Shown: positions 23,045-29,316 of the stretch, one piece after another | Position numbering within the stretch: the stretch's first letter is position 1 | How the letters are laid out: every line of letters begins with the position of its first letter | Assembly (NCBI RefSeq): GCF_007050985.1 | Contig: NZ_VHSF01000001.1 | Span: 186,001-250,000, forward strand | Source of the DNA: Christiangramia sabulilitoris | Lineage (GTDB): Bacteria > Bacteroidota > Bacteroidia > Flavobacteriales > Flavobacteriaceae | Direction: 5' to 3' | DNA: 64,000 bases | Notes under the pieces: model-generated | The model's input: only the letters and a program-made list of their open reading frames with translations | Database searches by the model: none | Told to the model about the DNA's origin: nothing | Position numbers and translations under genes: made by a program

Positions 23045-23074
23045 AAATCCCGGTACTATTCCGGGATTTTTTTT
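23045..23074 (+). terminator. Rho-independent terminator after the OmpA lipoprotein gene
   Basis: AAATCCCGG pairs with CCGGGATTT around a 7-base loop and is followed by eight Ts in a row, ending 24 bases before the polyketide operon start. Confidence 0.85.
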
Positions 23075-23097: not shown

Positions 23098-24225
23098 GTG
23101 AAGTGTACCCAGGTTATAATTATTGGTGGCGGGTTAGCTGGCCTTACTGCGGCCATAGATCTTTCTAATAAAGGGATCGAGGTTATCCTGTTCGAAAAAG
23201 AGAAATATCCGCATCATAAAGTCTGTGGTGAGTATCTTTCAGCCGAGATCCTGCCATACCTGAAATCAATAGGGGTAGACCTGGAAGATCTCAATCCCGC
23301 AAAAATAGATACTTTAGAATATTCCTCAAATTCAGGGAATTTGACCACCTGTCCATTAGAAATGGGAGGTTTAGGGATTAGCCGGTATAGTTTAGACTAT
23401 TACCTATATACAACTGCCCTTAATTCAGGATGCCAGATCATTAAGGCCACTGTAATGGACGCAGTATTTAGCGAGAATAGCTTCACCATCTCAACCAGTA
23501 CCGGCGAGAAATTAAATGCGGATTTCGTGCTAGGAGCTTATGGGAAAAGGTCTAATCTTGATAAAAAGCTGGATCGAACATTTTTTATGAACCAATCTTC
23601 CTGGCTTGCGGTAAAAGCTCACTATAAAAATGATCAATATCCTGATAATCTGGTATCACTGCATAATTTTGAAGGTGGCTACTGCGGATTATCTAAAACG
23701 GAGTTGGACACAATTAACGTCTGTTATCTGGCTACCTATAACAGTTTCAAAAAATATAAAAACACCGAAGAATACAGAACTGCAGTATTGATGCAGAACC
23801 CCAGACTGAAAGAATTCTTTCAAAATTCAGACCTTATTTTCGAAAAAGAATTAAGTATTGCCCAGGTAAATTTCGACAAAAAGTCTGTAGTAAAGGAGCA
23901 TATACTAATGCTGGGTGATGCCGCAGGCTTAATTCATCCTTTATGTGGTAACGGAATGGCTATGGCTATTCATAGTGCTAAACTGGCAACAGATCAGGTC
24001 CTCTCATATTACCAAAAATTTCCGGTGAGCCGTGAAATGATAGAAAACAATTTTGAAAAAAACTGGCGTATTAATTTTGAACAGAGAATTAAAACGGGAA
24101 GGATATTGCAGAGGATACTTTTAAATAATTCATTCGCAACTATGTCGCAAAGGCTGGTTAATACCTTCCCGGGAATTATGCCCTATATTATCAAAAATAC
24201 GCACGGACAACCAGTATATGTATAA
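23098..24225 (+). CDS. FAD-dependent oxidoreductase of the polyketide operon
   Basis: A 375-residue flavoprotein of the geranylgeranyl-reductase/aromatic-hydroxylase group. It has the Rossmann IIIGGGLAGLTAAIDL (~7-22), FEKEKYPHHKVCGEYLS and the second FAD motif LGDAAGLIHPLCGNGM (~272-287). The start is a GTG placed right at the fold; no ATG is available. It is the first gene of an eight-gene operon, and its end overlaps the methyltransferase start by 8 bases. In analogous type III PKS clusters (Streptomyces srsABC) a flavin monooxygenase hydroxylates the resorcinol, so late ring or chain oxidation is a reasonable inference; a double-bond reductase role is the alternative. Confidence 0.85.
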   Translation: MKCTQVIIIGGGLAGLTAAIDLSNKGIEVILFEKEKYPHHKVCGEYLSAEILPYLKSIGVDLEDLNPAKIDTLEYSSNSGNLTTCPLEMGGLGISRYSLDYYLYTTALNSGCQIIKATVMDAVFSENSFTISTSTGEKLNADFVLGAYGKRSNLDKKLDRTFFMNQSSWLAVKAHYKNDQYPDNLVSLHNFEGGYCGLSKTELDTINVCYLATYNSFKKYKNTEEYRTAVLMQNPRLKEFFQNSDLIFEKELSIAQVNFDKKSVVKEHILMLGDAAGLIHPLCGNGMAMAIHSAKLATDQVLSYYQKFPVSREMIENNFEKNWRINFEQRIKTGRILQRILLNNSFATMSQRLVNTFPGIMPYIIKNTHGQPVYV

Positions 24226-24931
24226 AATAGATACCTCCATTCGCAGTGATGAGAGCGAGATCATGGATAATTTTAAACTCCAGGGATCCGCTCTGGGAAA
24301 AACGTTGGATGATCTCGAAAATATCAATACCTGGCTTGGGGGGAATAGAATTACGATTAAAGGAGTAGAAGAACTTTTAAAAAATTCCCCGACAGACCGG
24401 GAAATAAGAATTGCAGATATAGGCTGCGGTAATGGAGCTGTGCTCAGAAAGATTTCAGCCTGGGCCGGAAAAAAAAATTATAAACTACAATTAACCGGTA
24501 TCGATGCTAATGATCATGCGATCAAAATTGGGGAAGAATTATCGGCAGACCATTCCAATCTTGATTTTAAATGTCTGAACATTTTTAGTGAAGAATTTAA
24601 GCAAATGAAGTTTGACATAATTCTTTGTACGCTCACCTTGCATCATTTCAAAGATCAGCAAATCATCAACCTTCTGGATCAATTAACCGGGCAGGCAGAG
24701 TTGGGAATAGTGATTAATGATTTACATCGCAGCAGTACAGCATATTTCTTATTTAAAGCATTTTGCGCTGTTTTTGTCAATAACGATATCGCCAGGAAAG
24801 ACGGGCTAATATCAATTTTAAGAGGTTTTAAAAAAGAGGATCTTGCCGGTTATAAAGATCGCATATCTGCCAGCAATCATTCCATAAAATGGAAATGGGC
24901 TTTCAGGTATCAGTGGATCATAAAAAAATAA
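24218..24931 (+). CDS. SAM-dependent methyltransferase of the polyketide operon
   Basis: A 237-residue class I methyltransferase. Motif I is IADIGCGNGAVL (~66-77), followed by GIDANDHAI for ribose binding and the LTLHHF motif (~142). The length and FKDQQIINLLDQL region resemble the small methyltransferases found next to type III PKS genes. The start overlaps the flavoprotein gene by 8 bases, though a second ATG at 24263 is possible. O- or C-methylation of the polyketide product is inferred from position only. Confidence 0.85.
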   Translation: MYKIDTSIRSDESEIMDNFKLQGSALGKTLDDLENINTWLGGNRITIKGVEELLKNSPTDREIRIADIGCGNGAVLRKISAWAGKKNYKLQLTGIDANDHAIKIGEELSADHSNLDFKCLNIFSEEFKQMKFDIILCTLTLHHFKDQQIINLLDQLTGQAELGIVINDLHRSSTAYFLFKAFCAVFVNNDIARKDGLISILRGFKKEDLAGYKDRISASNHSIKWKWAFRYQWIIKK

Positions 24932-24941
24932 AAAGGAATTA

Positions 24942-25994
24942 ATGAGTGTAAAAATCGTCAGGGCAGAAAAAGAATTACCGCAATATTCGCGTGAAACCAA
25001 AGATATATTACCTTTTGTAGAGGCTTGGCTTGCCGGGCAGGAGGAAAGATTTAAACGGAAGGTTCTTAAAATATTTGAAGGTGCGGCAGTGGATAAGAGA
25101 TATTCCATAATGTCTCCTGAAGAGGTTTTTACTACAACTACTTTCGAAGATAAGAATGATATTTATATACGAGAGGTAAAAAAGCTGGGCAGGAATGTTC
25201 TTGAGAAATCTTTAAAAAATACCGGTTGGGATCCGGCTTCTCTGGACTATATCATTACCGTTAGCTGTACGGGGATCATGATTCCATCTCTTGATGCTTA
25301 TTTGATCAATGAACTGGACCTTAAGCGCAACATCACTCGACTGCCGGTAACAGAAATGGGCTGTGCTGCCGGGATAAGCGGGATGATCTATGCATATAAT
25401 TTCCTGAAGTCGAATCCGGGAAAAAGAGCTGCCGTGATCGCAGTTGAAAGTCCTTCAGCAACTTTTCAACTTGAAGATTACAGCATGGCCAATATGGTAA
25501 GCGCAGCTATTTTTGGCGATGGAGCTGCATGTGTCTTATTGTCTTCTGAAGATAATATTGATGCACCCCGAATTCTGGCTGAAGAAATGTACCATTTCTA
25601 CGATGCCACTAATTTAATGGGATTTGATCTGAGAAACAGCGGTTTGCAAATGATCCTCGATCCGGAGGTACCAGCCACCATTTCTGAACATTTTCCAGAG
25701 ATCATTCATCCTTTCCTTAAGAAACATAATACCTCCATTGAAAATATTGAGCATTTGATCTTTCACCCCGGGGGACGAAAGATCGTTCAAACCGTTTCTG
25801 ATCTTTTTGGTAACTTAGGTAAGAATATTGACGACACCCGGGAGGTTTTACGTTTGTATGGAAATATGAGCAGTGCGACCGTAATATATGTTCTGGAAAG
25901 ATTCCTTAAAAAAGAGATCCCTAAAGGAGACCAGGGAATTATGCTCAGTTTTGGACCCGGATTTTCAGCTCAAAGAATTTTAATAGAATGGTAG
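24942..25994 (+). CDS. Type III polyketide synthase
   Basis: A 350-residue chalcone/stilbene-synthase-fold enzyme. The catalytic triad is intact: Cys141 in EMGCAAGISG, His275 in IFHPGGRK and Asn308 in YGNMSSATV. The GFGPG-like loop near the C terminus reads SFGPGFSA. Such enzymes extend an acyl starter with malonyl-CoA and cyclise it to pyrones, resorcinols or phloroglucinol. The surrounding fatty-acid-type genes suggest a long acyl starter rather than malonyl alone. It ends 7 bases inside the enoyl-reductase gene, so translation is coupled. Confidence 0.95.
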   Translation: MSVKIVRAEKELPQYSRETKDILPFVEAWLAGQEERFKRKVLKIFEGAAVDKRYSIMSPEEVFTTTTFEDKNDIYIREVKKLGRNVLEKSLKNTGWDPASLDYIITVSCTGIMIPSLDAYLINELDLKRNITRLPVTEMGCAAGISGMIYAYNFLKSNPGKRAAVIAVESPSATFQLEDYSMANMVSAAIFGDGAACVLLSSEDNIDAPRILAEEMYHFYDATNLMGFDLRNSGLQMILDPEVPATISEHFPEIIHPFLKKHNTSIENIEHLIFHPGGRKIVQTVSDLFGNLGKNIDDTREVLRLYGNMSSATVIYVLERFLKKEIPKGDQGIMLSFGPGFSAQRILIEW

Positions 25995-26782
25995 CAGAAT
26001 TTAAAGATCAGAATTATTGGGCTCTTGTACTGGGCGGAAGCAGCGGCCTGGGTTACGCCAGTGCCAAGAAACTGGCCAGACATGGGATGAATATTATCAT
26101 TATTCATAGGGATCGTCGAAGTGAAATTCCCGATATAGAAGAAGCTTTTGATGAGATCAGGAGATCTGGAGTGCAATTTGAAAGTTTTAATGCCGATGCG
26201 GTTAAAAAAGAAAGTAGAAAAGACTTAGTTGATAAGATAAAAAATGTTCTGGGTGAAAAAGGCAGGATCAGAACCCTGTTACACAGCATCGCTAAAGGAA
26301 ATCTCAAACCTATGATTGGTGAAGATAATATCCTGGAGAATATAGATTTTCAACTTACTATAGATGCCATGGCTTTAAGCCTGTATGACTGGACCCAGGC
26401 TGTTTACAGGGAAGGTCTGTTCACGAAAGATGCTAGAGTGCTGTCCTTCACCAGCGATGGTAATCGCAAAGCATGGAAGAATTACGCGGCTGTATCTGCG
26501 GCCAAGGTCACCCTGGAAGCCTTAACACGAAGTATGGCATTGGAGTTTGCGCGTCATGGCATCAGAGCTAATTGTATACAGGCCGGGATAACTGTAACCA
26601 GGTCTTTCCAGATGATCCCGGGAAATGAAACTTTGAGAGTTCATGCATTAAAACACAATCCATTTAGAAGACTTACCGTACCAGATGATGTTGCCAACGT
26701 GGTATACCTTTTAAGCAAGGATGAAGCCAGCTGGATCACCGGTACGATCATTCCTGTAAATGGTGGAGAACACTTGATGTAA
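25988..26782 (+). CDS. SDR enoyl-ACP reductase-like (FabI/FabL type)
   Basis: A 264-residue short-chain dehydrogenase with VLGGSSGLG (14-22) for the dinucleotide. The active site is Tyr166 and Lys173, separated by six residues, as in the enoyl reductases FabI and FabL, not the Y-x3-K of ketoreductases. IIPVNGGEHLM ends the protein. It should reduce the 2-enoyl group of a carrier-bound chain. It overlaps the PKS gene by 7 bases and abuts the dehydratase gene with no gap. Confidence 0.88.
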   Translation: MVAEFKDQNYWALVLGGSSGLGYASAKKLARHGMNIIIIHRDRRSEIPDIEEAFDEIRRSGVQFESFNADAVKKESRKDLVDKIKNVLGEKGRIRTLLHSIAKGNLKPMIGEDNILENIDFQLTIDAMALSLYDWTQAVYREGLFTKDARVLSFTSDGNRKAWKNYAAVSAAKVTLEALTRSMALEFARHGIRANCIQAGITVTRSFQMIPGNETLRVHALKHNPFRRLTVPDDVANVVYLLSKDEASWITGTIIPVNGGEHLM

Positions 26783-27229
26783 ATGCAGGAATTACTCGAA
26801 CAACTTCCATATTCCCGCCCGTTCCTATTTGTGGATGAGATCCTTCAGGTTAGCGATAATAATATTGAAGGTATTTATACCTTCTCTCCTGATCTTTTCT
26901 TTTATAAGGGACATTTTAAAGAAAACCCGGTCACGCCGGGAGTTATAATTACAGAATGTATGGCCCAGATCGGGCTGGTATGTCTCGGAATCTACCTTTC
27001 CAATAAACAATCATCGCTTAGATCTGAAGCAAAAATTGCTATGACTTCTACAGATATTGAATTTTTGAAGCCAGTATTTCCCGGAGAAAAGGTGCGGGTA
27101 TGTTCAGAAAAGCAATACTTCAGGTTTAATAAGCTAAAATGTAAAGTTGAGATGTACAATTGTGAAAATATTATAGTTGCTAAAGGAACCATTGCGGGAA
27201 TGATCATAAAGGACAATAGCAGGATTTAA
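26783..27229 (+). CDS. 3-hydroxyacyl-ACP dehydratase, FabZ-like hotdog protein
   Basis: A 148-residue hotdog-fold protein with the FabZ signature: RPFLFVDEI (~12-20), catalytic His44 in KGHFKENPVTPG and Glu58 in ITECMAQIG. It removes water from a 3-hydroxyacyl chain. The start follows the reductase stop directly, and the end shares one base with the ketosynthase start (TAATG). Its presence beside an enoyl reductase, but without a dedicated ketoreductase, implies use of the housekeeping FabG or of another enzyme for the first reduction. Confidence 0.88.
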   Translation: MQELLEQLPYSRPFLFVDEILQVSDNNIEGIYTFSPDLFFYKGHFKENPVTPGVIITECMAQIGLVCLGIYLSNKQSSLRSEAKIAMTSTDIEFLKPVFPGEKVRVCSEKQYFRFNKLKCKVEMYNCENIIVAKGTIAGMIIKDNSRI

Positions 27230-28503
27230 TGGGAAAAAGAGTAGTTATAACCGGTATGGGCGTTGCCGCACCAAATGGTGTGGGATTAGAAAACTTTAAT
27301 TCTTCACTAAAAGCAATGAAAAGTGGGATTCAATTTTTCCCCGAATTGGAGAAATTGAAATTTAGCTGCCAGATAGGTGGAAAACCAGAAATTAGTGAGG
27401 AAATATTAAACCGTTATTTTACCCCGTTACAACTGCGGGGACTTAAAAGCAGCGGAATTATTTATGGAGTTATATCTGGTACTGAAGCCTGGGAAGATGC
27501 CGGTCTAAAAATATCAAAAGAAGAATCTCCAGACTGGGATACCGGGATTATTTTTGGAACGGGCATACTTGGGGTTGATAAATTCAGGGAAGCAATCCAC
27601 CTGATAGATGAGGGTAAAACCCGCAGGCTGGGTAGCACAAGTGTTGTACAAACTATGGCAAGTGGAATAAGTGCATACCTGGGCGGAATACTTGGATGTG
27701 GAAACCAGGTAACCACAAATTCTTCAGCCTGCACAACAGGAACTGAAGCTCTTTTAATGGGATTTGAACGAATCCAAACTGGTAAAGCGAAACGAATGCT
27801 TGTTGGCAGTTGTGGTGACCACGGGCCTTATGTATGGGGTGGGTTTGATGCAATGAGAATTCTTCCAAATAAATTTAATAAAGAGCCGGAAAATGCTTCT
27901 AAACCTATGAGTCGGGAGGCGGCGGGTTTTGTACCGGGAAGCGGGGCAGGAGCTCTAGTTCTAGAAGATCTTGAGGTTGCTTTAGAAAGAGGAGCAAAGA
28001 TCTATGCAGAAGTTCTTGGAGGAGATATAAATAGTGGAGGCCAGAGGGGAGAAGGAAGTATGACGGCCGCCAATAATGAGGCTGTAGTGCGTTGTATTCA
28101 AAAAGCGATTAAAAATTCAGGAATAACAGCTGATAAAATAGACGCTGTAAACGGTCATCTAACCGCTACCACCAAGGATGCAGTAGAAATAATGAACTGG
28201 ACAGAAGCATTGAAACTAAAAGGAGGTTCTTTTCCTTTTATAAATTCATTAAAAGGAATGACAGGCCATTGTTTAAGCGCGTCAGGTTCTATAGAAAGCG
28301 TGGCATCTGTACTTCAGATTTCGAACAATTTTATTTTTGGCAACCTCAATTGCGAGGAAATTCATCCCGAAATTTCAGATCTTATTAGCCATAAATGTAT
28401 ACCCACTACCATGCTTGAAAAAAAGATAAATATTCTGGCTAAAGCCAGCTTTGGTTTTGGTGATGTGAATGCTGTGGCTATCTTTAAAAGATATAAAGCT
28501 TAA
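27229..28503 (+). CDS. Beta-ketoacyl-ACP synthase (FabF-like) of the polyketide operon
   Basis: A 424-residue thiolase-fold ketosynthase with active Cys168 in NSSACTTGTEAL and both histidines, His310 in VNGHLTATT and His347 in MTGHCLSASG, so it is a complete Cys-His-His KAS rather than a chain-length factor. The second site reads NGHLTATTKD instead of the common HGTGT, as in the KAS proteins of aryl-polyene and dialkylresorcinol-type clusters. It probably elongates the chain on the adjacent carrier protein. It follows the dehydratase gene with a 1-base overlap. Confidence 0.9.
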   Translation: MGKRVVITGMGVAAPNGVGLENFNSSLKAMKSGIQFFPELEKLKFSCQIGGKPEISEEILNRYFTPLQLRGLKSSGIIYGVISGTEAWEDAGLKISKEESPDWDTGIIFGTGILGVDKFREAIHLIDEGKTRRLGSTSVVQTMASGISAYLGGILGCGNQVTTNSSACTTGTEALLMGFERIQTGKAKRMLVGSCGDHGPYVWGGFDAMRILPNKFNKEPENASKPMSREAAGFVPGSGAGALVLEDLEVALERGAKIYAEVLGGDINSGGQRGEGSMTAANNEAVVRCIQKAIKNSGITADKIDAVNGHLTATTKDAVEIMNWTEALKLKGGSFPFINSLKGMTGHCLSASGSIESVASVLQISNNFIFGNLNCEEIHPEISDLISHKCIPTTMLEKKINILAKASFGFGDVNAVAIFKRYKA

Positions 28504-28513
28504 TTTATTTACC

Positions 28514-28768
28514 ATGAGTGAAAAAGAAATTTTAACCAGACTGAAAAAGATCGTAGAACCCTATGTGCAAAGCCTGGAAGGTCTGCAAAATTTTAAGGAG
28601 GAAACTGATTTTCTAAATGATCTGCAGATCAATTCTGCAAACCTTGTGGATGTCATCCTGGATGTGGAAGATGAATTTAATATTGAAATTGATAATGACA
28701 GCATGGAAGGAATGCTAACGGTTGGCGATGCGAAAGCAATTATTCAAAGAAAACTACCGCAAGGGTGA
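28514..28768 (+). CDS. Dedicated acyl carrier protein
   Basis: An 84-residue helical carrier protein. The phosphopantetheine Ser is Ser41 in DLQINSANLVDVILD; the usual Asp before it is Asn here, a variant typical of specialised rather than FabF-system carriers. The acidic recognition helix (LDVEDEFNIEID) is present. The ATG at 28514 is used because the frame upstream runs through the ketosynthase end. The stop overlaps the PPTase GTG as GTGA. Confidence 0.9.
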   Translation: MSEKEILTRLKKIVEPYVQSLEGLQNFKEETDFLNDLQINSANLVDVILDVEDEFNIEIDNDSMEGMLTVGDAKAIIQRKLPQG

Positions 28769-29316
28769 TTGGAAATGATATCATAGATCTTAACCTAGCC
28801 AGGACGGAAAAGAAATCGGAAAACCTCCGGATTCTTCAGAAAATTTGTACTGAAGGAGAAATAGAATTAATTAAAAGTTCTGAGGACCCTGAACTTTTTT
28901 TCTGGAAAGTCTGGTCTATGAAGGAAACTGCCTATAAGGCACATCAAAGATTATTTGATATCCCGAGAAAATTAAATCCGCAGAAATATGAATGCCATTT
29001 TAATCCTGGAAATAAGGTTGGCTTGGTTTCTATTGATGGGTGCGATTATAATGTAAAACTTTCCATTTCAGCAGATTCTATTCATTGCCATACCCGGGAT
29101 GCTAGCATTGAGGTTTTTACTGGTGTAAAAAATAAAGATCAGATTTTAATCAACTTTCTGGCAAGCCATTATACAAAAGAAAGAACATTTGATCTTAGAA
29201 AAAATTCACAGGGAATACCTTCCTGTTATCTGCATAATTTGAAAAAAATAATTCCCTTATCTGTTAGTCACCACGGGAAATTTACTGCTTTTGCGATTCC
29301 GTTAATTAAGTCCTAA
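28765..29316 (+). CDS. 4'-phosphopantetheinyl transferase superfamily protein
   Basis: A 183-residue PPTase that loads the phosphopantetheine arm onto the operon's carrier protein. Magnesium and CoA motifs are GNDIIDL with Asp5 and WSMKETAYKA with Glu54 and Lys58. It starts with GTG inside the ACP stop codon, a tight coupling that strongly suggests it serves that ACP. It is the last gene of the operon. Confidence 0.9.
   Translation: MIGNDIIDLNLARTEKKSENLRILQKICTEGEIELIKSSEDPELFFWKVWSMKETAYKAHQRLFDIPRKLNPQKYECHFNPGNKVGLVSIDGCDYNVKLSISADSIHCHTRDASIEVFTGVKNKDQILINFLASHYTKERTFDLRKNSQGIPSCYLHNLKKIIPLSVSHHGKFTAFAIPLIKS

Follow-up and report, generated by a model that had tools for sequence, protein, structure and literature searches.

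A starter module co-inherited with a type III polyketide synthase in a flavobacterial operon predicted to make an alkyl-aromatic lipid

Joint inheritance of the starter module and the synthase

The window analysed here is a stretch of 64,000 nucleotides from Christiangramia sabulilitoris (contig NZ_VHSF01000001.1, positions 186,001 to 250,000), and an operon of eight genes, named A to H, lies on its plus strand. The operon joins a type III polyketide synthase (PKS, gene C), a methyltransferase (MT, B) and a flavin adenine dinucleotide (FAD) enzyme (A) to an enoyl reductase (ER, D), a dehydratase (DH, E), a ketosynthase (KS, F), an acyl carrier protein (ACP, G) and a 4'-phosphopantetheinyl transferase (PPTase, H). 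The sequence comparison indicates that the starter module formed around the KS and the ACP serves the PKS, and its co-occurrence with the PKS is the main evidence. With a probability of about 0.6, the product of the operon is a methylated and oxidised alkyl-aromatic lipid, derived from an alkylresorcinol or an alkylpyrone and perhaps a quinone, whose chain is handed from the private ACP to the PKS.

The family sample was composed of 199 Flavobacteriaceae genomes, one per genus. An ortholog of the PKS was found in 63 of them, counting the own genome (E ≤ 1e-100, against 1e-50 for the next best match), and an ortholog of the KS in 62 (E ≤ 1e-70). The KS was present in 62 of the 63 PKS-positive genomes and in none of the 136 PKS-negative ones. 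Therefore, the starter module is tied to the PKS, and the functional link of the KS and ACP genes to the PKS proposed in the initial annotation is supported. The Fisher p value of this co-occurrence is 2.5e-51, which overstates its strength because relatedness is ignored. The KS lies within the PKS locus in 59 of the 63 genomes, and E adjoins F in 58 of these 59. The E-F-G block was relocated as a unit yet retained in two genomes (G190 and G144), and the operon of another (G066) is divided over two contigs.

A, B and C are contiguous and in this order in all 63 family loci, which bears out the suggested logic of FAD enzyme, methyltransferase and type III PKS. An extra small open reading frame (ORF) lies between A and B in locus L083 and between B and C in locus L096. 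In the latter (genome G150), the PKS and FAD genes were each matched in two pieces, by decay or sequencing error. Conservation of the whole eight-gene order had been put forward as a check; the trio is kept in all 63 loci and the KS in 59, a whole D is found in 55, and H is adjacent in 20. The genes of the operon and the element preceding it are as follows.

23045-23069, plus strand: terminator-like hairpin, a 9-bp stem with 5 G-C pairs and then a T tract, lying after the OmpA-like gene and ahead of the operon
23098-24225, plus strand: A, FAD-dependent oxidoreductase/monooxygenase of the geranylgeranyl-reductase/halogenase/UbiH superfamily (GTG start; PF01494, 8e-15)
24218-24931, plus strand: B, class I S-adenosylmethionine methyltransferase, NF004851/PRK06202-like (PF13649, 2.6e-12)
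24942-25994, plus strand: C, type III PKS (PF00195/PF02797; Cys141-His275-Asn308 triad)
25988-26782, plus strand: D, SDR enoyl-ACP reductase, FabL/FabI-like (PF13561, 2e-43; Y166-x6-K173)
26783-27229, plus strand: E, FabZ-type 3-hydroxyacyl dehydratase (PF07977, 2.9e-16; His44, Glu58)
27229-28503, plus strand: F, FabB/FabF-type condensing KS (PF00109, 8.6e-30; Cys168-His310-His347)
28514-28768, plus strand: G, private ACP (NCBIfam ACP models; presumed pantetheine Ser41)
28765-29316, plus strand: H, PPTase (GTG start; PF01648, 5.5e-12)

ORF inspection confirmed eight plus-strand ORFs at 23098-29316 of the window. The overlaps of 8 (A/B), 7 (C/D), 1 (E/F) and 4 (G/H) bases given in the initial annotation were all exact. 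D and E are flush (0 bases), and gaps of 10 bases are found at B/C and F/G. The start of G at 28514 was our choice, as the longest ORF begins at 28469. The hairpin stem ends 28 bases before the start of A. The junctions were also measured in 146 related loci, a set in which some genomes were fetched twice. Gaps of at most 30 bases were counted at A/B in 144 of 144 cases, B/C in 131/145, C/D in 82/109, D/E in 78/104, E/F in 109/139, F/G in 98/137 and G/H in 73/75. Since tight junctions recur across related loci, the arrangement is not due to chance. A simple pattern search for a Bacteroidota-type promoter gave no match just upstream of A, and we therefore infer from the spacing that the eight genes form one transcript.

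Catalytic and optional parts of the operon

The gene labels were corroborated by Pfam, with G just below the cut-off, and by NCBIfam. Family-wide alignments contained 55-63 rows for A to G and 18 rows for H. In D, Y166-x6-K173 is at least 97% conserved (55 sequences) and has the spacing of FabI/FabL, not the Yx3K of FabG. The closest relative of D in the PDB is FabL, and the NCBIfam FabL model scores 140.9 bits on D, below its cut-off of 328. The Y-x6-K motif and the FabL match identify D as an enoyl reductase, and a ketoreductase role of D was ruled out by the same motif. His44 and Glu58 of E (57 sequences) and Cys168, His310 and His347 of F (59 sequences) are also at least 97% conserved. Judged by these residues, F is a condensing ketosynthase and not a chain-length factor. 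It shares 34% identity with the FabF of its own genome, and its orthologs in 61 other genera share 54-73% identity with it.

The ACP G scored 20.7 bits against the PP-binding Pfam cut-off of 20.8 bits, and the NCBIfam ACP models matched it, also below their cut-offs. N-S-A replaces D-S-L at the presumed pantetheine serine, Ser41. N40-S41 is at least 97% conserved (56 sequences), and the housekeeping ACP of the own genome has DSL. Because the active-site residues of the KS, DH and ER and the ACP serine are conserved, the module looks catalytic.

Two members of the operon, the enoyl reductase D and the PPTase H, are optional parts. The ORF of D is complete in 55 of the 63 family loci. D is missing from all 15 loci with Flavobacterium in the record title, from the two Arenibacter loci and from three of the four Winogradskyella loci. 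Of the eight family genomes that lack a complete D, the seven other than G177 were searched, and none has a D ortholog elsewhere (E ≤ 1e-25); among them, G103 retains a short remnant resembling D. The PPTase adjoins the ACP in 20 of the 63 genera. All of these 20 genomes have at least one further PPTase, the own genome having a second besides H, and in the remaining 43 one or two PPTases are encoded elsewhere. The idea that an own PPTase is needed as a core feature was rejected on these grounds. The dedicated starter set of the initial annotation is supported for the KS and ACP and weakened for the PPTase and the enoyl reductase.

C has the CHS/STS fold and the Cys-His-Asn triad of a type III PKS. 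Its Cys141, His275 and Asn308 are invariant across 38 aligned PKSs. In a Foldseek search with the AlphaFold2 (AF2) model of C (pLDDT 94.4), the best match was PKS11 of Mycobacterium tuberculosis, which makes alkylpyrones, followed by CylI, an alkylresorcinol enzyme, with a TM score of 0.92 to both. B was matched by NF004851 at 132.7 bits, under its cut-off of 243. A was matched by TIGR02032 at 120 bits, under its cut-off of 158.8, and its AF2 model had a pLDDT of 89.4. The best PDB folds for A were the flavin halogenases CndH/PltA, and a geranylgeranyl-reductase-like protein and 3-hydroxybenzoate 6-hydroxylase were also high. The modelled fold is compatible with a ring hydroxylase, without proving it. 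A role of A as a flavin-dependent halogenase was rejected despite the fold similarity, since WxWxIP, which we take to be the halogenase motif, was applied to A and no WxW was found when its sequence was read by eye.

Predicted route and its alternatives

The chain flow and its direction, the ACP-to-PKS hand-over, the ring type, the tailoring order and the biological role are the parts of the scheme that we infer. F would accept an acyl chain, whose simplest source is the housekeeping fatty-acid pool, and would condense it with malonyl on the ACP G. The ketone would be reduced by a host ketoreductase (FabG), which is needed because no ketoreductase is encoded among the eight genes. E would dehydrate the chain and D would saturate it, or a host enoyl reductase would do so where D was lost. 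The acyl chain would then pass from G to Cys141 of C. The PKS would extend it with malonyl-coenzyme A (CoA) and cyclise it, and the ring would be methylated by B and oxidised by A. The transfer from ArsA-ACP to ArsB/ArsC, as described in excerpted literature, is a precedent for the hand-over.

Several observations weigh against this scheme. The co-occurrence shows a shared pathway and not the direction of chain flow. The identity of C to the solved enzymes is only 20-27% (50 best structural matches), so that the ring may be a pyrone, a resorcinol or of another type. The clade of C has Phe228 where the 15 distant Bacteroidota PKSs aligned have Trp, a difference that is not tied to a product. 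One genome (G138) has A to D and no detectable KS anywhere in it; other genes follow D on a 15.9-kb contig, and the E-F-G block was lost or unassembled. E is not found beside F in locus L083 (genome G118). Finally, no DH or ER gene lies beside the KS of the sphingomonad clusters described below, where a beta-ketoacyl hand-over is possible.

The last two observations, the lack of E in L083 and the KS and ACP without DH or ER in sphingomonads, agree with a route in which the KS hands a beta-ketoacyl chain directly to C, as in the CylH-CylI/Gcs logic, and E and D act only in earlier rounds or in side-product editing. CylI was crystallised with a beta-ketoacyl-SNAC substrate, according to PDB entry titles, and a beta-ketoacyl-ACP starter of a type III PKS appears in the title of a paper cited by an excerpted review (PMC6274091). 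However, of the 59 family loci with F, counting that of the window, 58 have E beside it. Direct beta-ketoacyl transfer is improbable, ranking second among the three rivals weighed here, and is retained as an alternative together with the reversed order of synthesis that follows.

The strongest of them, in our view still unlikely, reverses the order of synthesis. C would first make a small aromatic acyl unit of the DpgA or phloroglucinol kind, and this starter would be loaded on G and elongated by F and E (and D) in the manner of an aryl polyene. Ten NCBIfam models matched C, and DpgA was the best of them and the sole type III PKS model. The loss of D in several genera leaves KS, DH and ACP, an aryl-polyene-like set, and an antiSMASH 'T3pks-arylpolyene' cluster is mentioned for Aequorivita in the excerpt of PMC6139392. 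However, C is far under the DpgA cut-off (NF042429, 179.7 bits against 425) and falls outside DpgA membership, and the operon has no DpgB-D-like genes. The fold of C is nearest to long-chain enzymes, and D is retained in 55 of the 63 family loci. The operon also lacks a CoA ligase or acyltransferase to load an aromatic acid on G.

The rival hardest to credit is that C makes phloroglucinol or another malonyl-only product, while the KS and ACP genes feed a separate lipid that is attached later. A type III PKS of Zobellia, reportedly a phloroglucinol synthase, was counted in its favour, and the better structural matches to C include Ectocarpus PKS-I and THNS. Cys109 of C stands at what we take to be the second-cysteine position of THNS, and residue comparisons with THNS, PKS18 and ArsB were given no weight. 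A type III PKS of Aequorivita shares 69% identity with one from Zobellia, as stated in the excerpted text of PMC6139392. On the other hand, no paper reporting the product of the Zobellia enzyme was found among the matches listed, and a malonyl-only product by itself leaves the joint inheritance of KS and PKS (62/63 versus 0/136) unexplained. The preferred product is the alkyl-aromatic lipid predicted to be made from a carrier-bound chain.

Spread, relatives and known systems

In a scan of named records, the best 80 of 320 confirmed places included Christiangramia, Salegentibacter, Salinimicrobium, Arenibacter, Aquimarina, Aequorivita, Winogradskyella, Flavobacterium, Kaistella, Chitinophaga sp. 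YR573 and a metagenome-assembled genome of Saprospiraceae. The phylum scan gave a match (E ≤ 1e-25) in 171 of 395 genomes. The form of about 70% identity was found outside the family only in G275, G328 and G437, with the same gene order and, in two of them, without D. This occurrence suggests transfer.

The flanks were also compared. In locus L243, from the PKS-negative genome G100, the flanking OmpA-like and downstream genes are present and the operon is absent between them. Members of the sequence cluster to which the OmpA-like gene belongs occur in 40 of the 63 PKS loci. The OmpA-like gene was also found in 16 of the 20 PKS-negative genomes tested, beside a lipocalin-like gene in all 16 fetched. 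The upstream OmpA-like and lipocalin-like genes were therefore rejected as operon members, given their presence in PKS-negative genomes and the empty site of L243. Genes for YceI, a lipid/isoprenoid-binding protein, lie immediately upstream in five loci (L072, L073, L081, L082 and L083) and downstream on the other strand in 16 other loci, one representative per group being Pfam-tested. The nearby YceI proteins might carry the operon product, but the lead is weak, as clade synteny could account for it. By eye, the operon follows accB-accC-like genes (and a fabH-like gene) in L072, L076, L081, L082, L088 and L089, and the accB-accC-like genes would supply malonyl-CoA. Some 45 kb before the window begins, the own genome has three ketosynthase-type hits and a separate DSI-type ACP (C1:138141-141591, in L262), perhaps an aryl-polyene/flexirubin-like cluster distinct from the operon.

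The trio is found more widely than the starter module. Three loci of other Bacteroidota (L159-L161) have a PKS-MT-FAD trio, with 27-28% identity for the PKS and 39-42% for the FAD enzyme, and neither a KS nor an ACP was matched in them. At most of the remaining distant loci fetched (L146-L158), there was no match to the FAD enzyme or to an adjacent partner. Falsirhodobacter, Paracoccus, Mesorhizobium and Roseomonas also have plasmids with a contiguous trio. Two further FAD-enzyme matches, in Bernardetia and Hymenobacter, have no annotated type III PKS adjoining. On the plasmid of Hymenobacter sp. DG01 (L264), a 36% identical FAD-enzyme homolog has a TauD-type dioxygenase and a gene of the isonitrile synthase family as neighbours, possibly another biosynthetic use of this flavoprotein family. 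The Stenotrophomonas rhizophila GA1 'plasmid' CP031730 (L266) and Lysinibacillus fusiformis pMGMM7 (L267) have in common the order PKS, methyltransferase, GTP-binding protein, rpmG and following genes. Because of this common order, CP031730 is possibly a misassigned Bacillales plasmid.

Sphingomonads provide an analogous arrangement. Six loci were drawn from 16 Sphingobium/Novosphingobium records, and five of the six have a KS and an ACP beside the trio. ACP-KS-type III PKS clusters with a FAD enzyme and a methyltransferase lie on plasmids of Novosphingobium US6-1 and Sphingobium yanoikuyae, and all five parts were matched on three further Novosphingobium plasmids. Sphingobium indicum has the trio and no KS or ACP match beside it. 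As in the operon, the KS and the ACP are discrete, and the two ACPs read also lack the Asp before the serine. Unlike the operon, these clusters have no DH, ER or PPTase beside the KS, and the KS is only 24-26% identical to F. This low identity points to a second, apparently independent recruitment of KS and ACP.

We tentatively propose, at somewhat less than an even chance, that type III PKSs equipped with a discrete starter module of their own form a recurring pathway class. Such a module would have its own ketosynthase and a non-DSL ACP and would either build on host fatty-acid synthesis or draw from it. The class would have arisen at least twice (Flavobacteria and sphingomonads), persist in roughly one in three Flavobacteriaceae genera and make an undescribed quinone- or phenol-lipid, with chain saturation tuned by the gain and loss of the enoyl reductase. 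If true, a common marine and freshwater bacterial family possesses a dedicated phenolic- or quinone-lipid pathway, and the optional enoyl reductase is a natural experiment on chain saturation. Excerpted sources describe carrier recognition by a type III PKS for the type I synthase ArsA and for Gcs/SCO7671; single-domain enzymes with one small ACP would offer a simple separable system for its study.

The operon can be compared with several known systems. Streptomyces srsABC is said to combine a PKS, a methyltransferase and a flavoprotein that give methylated alkylresorcinols and quinones, with no starter-building genes. The added starter genes had been named as the unusual part of the operon. 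They are indeed joined to the trio, but the arrangement is family-wide and has an analogous KS, ACP and PKS cluster in sphingomonads. Type III clusters in Flavobacteriaceae were counted in a survey (PMC7440613, seen in excerpt). Among the matches listed (titles and abstract starts of open-licence papers), no published description of the operon or its product was found. Carrier-to-type-III transfer is known, and what was not found described is this operon of FAD enzyme, MT and PKS with a discrete starter module.

The hierridin (hidABC) and planctomycete clusters, as excerpted, also have a type III PKS, a methyltransferase and an oxidoreductase in a tight operon. Alkylresorcinols were obtained from the PKSs of planctomycete trios, and the two partner genes of one such PKS brought about a single, probably C-linked, methylation (excerpt of PMC10896814). 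The operon of the window has the same three adjoining genes, in 63 of 63 loci. However, the hidABC and planctomycete operons are described there as three genes, without KS, DH, ER, ACP or PPTase. Their order is MT-FAD-PKS, which is usual and not strict, or PKS-MT-FAD, as cyanobacterial clusters also have, whereas it is FAD-MT-PKS here.

The hand-over from an ACP to a type III PKS, of the kind suggested in the initial annotation, was already known. The excerpted review PMC6274091 gives ArsA to ArsB/ArsC and the use of hexanoyl-ACP by Gcs/SCO7671, and HidC and CylI are described as accepting carrier-bound chains in the excerpt of PMC8086630. CylI of the cylindrocyclophane pathway, the second-best kind of structural match to C, is likewise a type III PKS fed with a carrier-built chain, according to the excerpted sources. 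Its upstream builders are the type I PKSs CylD/CylH, unlike the discrete enzymes here. In the ars system of Azotobacter vinelandii, as excerpted, a dedicated builder hands carrier-bound acyl chains to the type III PKSs ArsB/ArsC. The operon shares with it a dedicated chain builder inherited together with the PKS (62/63 versus 0/136). However, the ars builder is a type I (polyunsaturated-fatty-acid-synthase-like) megasynthase, whereas the operon encodes single-domain proteins by Pfam and a free ACP, together with a methyltransferase and a FAD enzyme.

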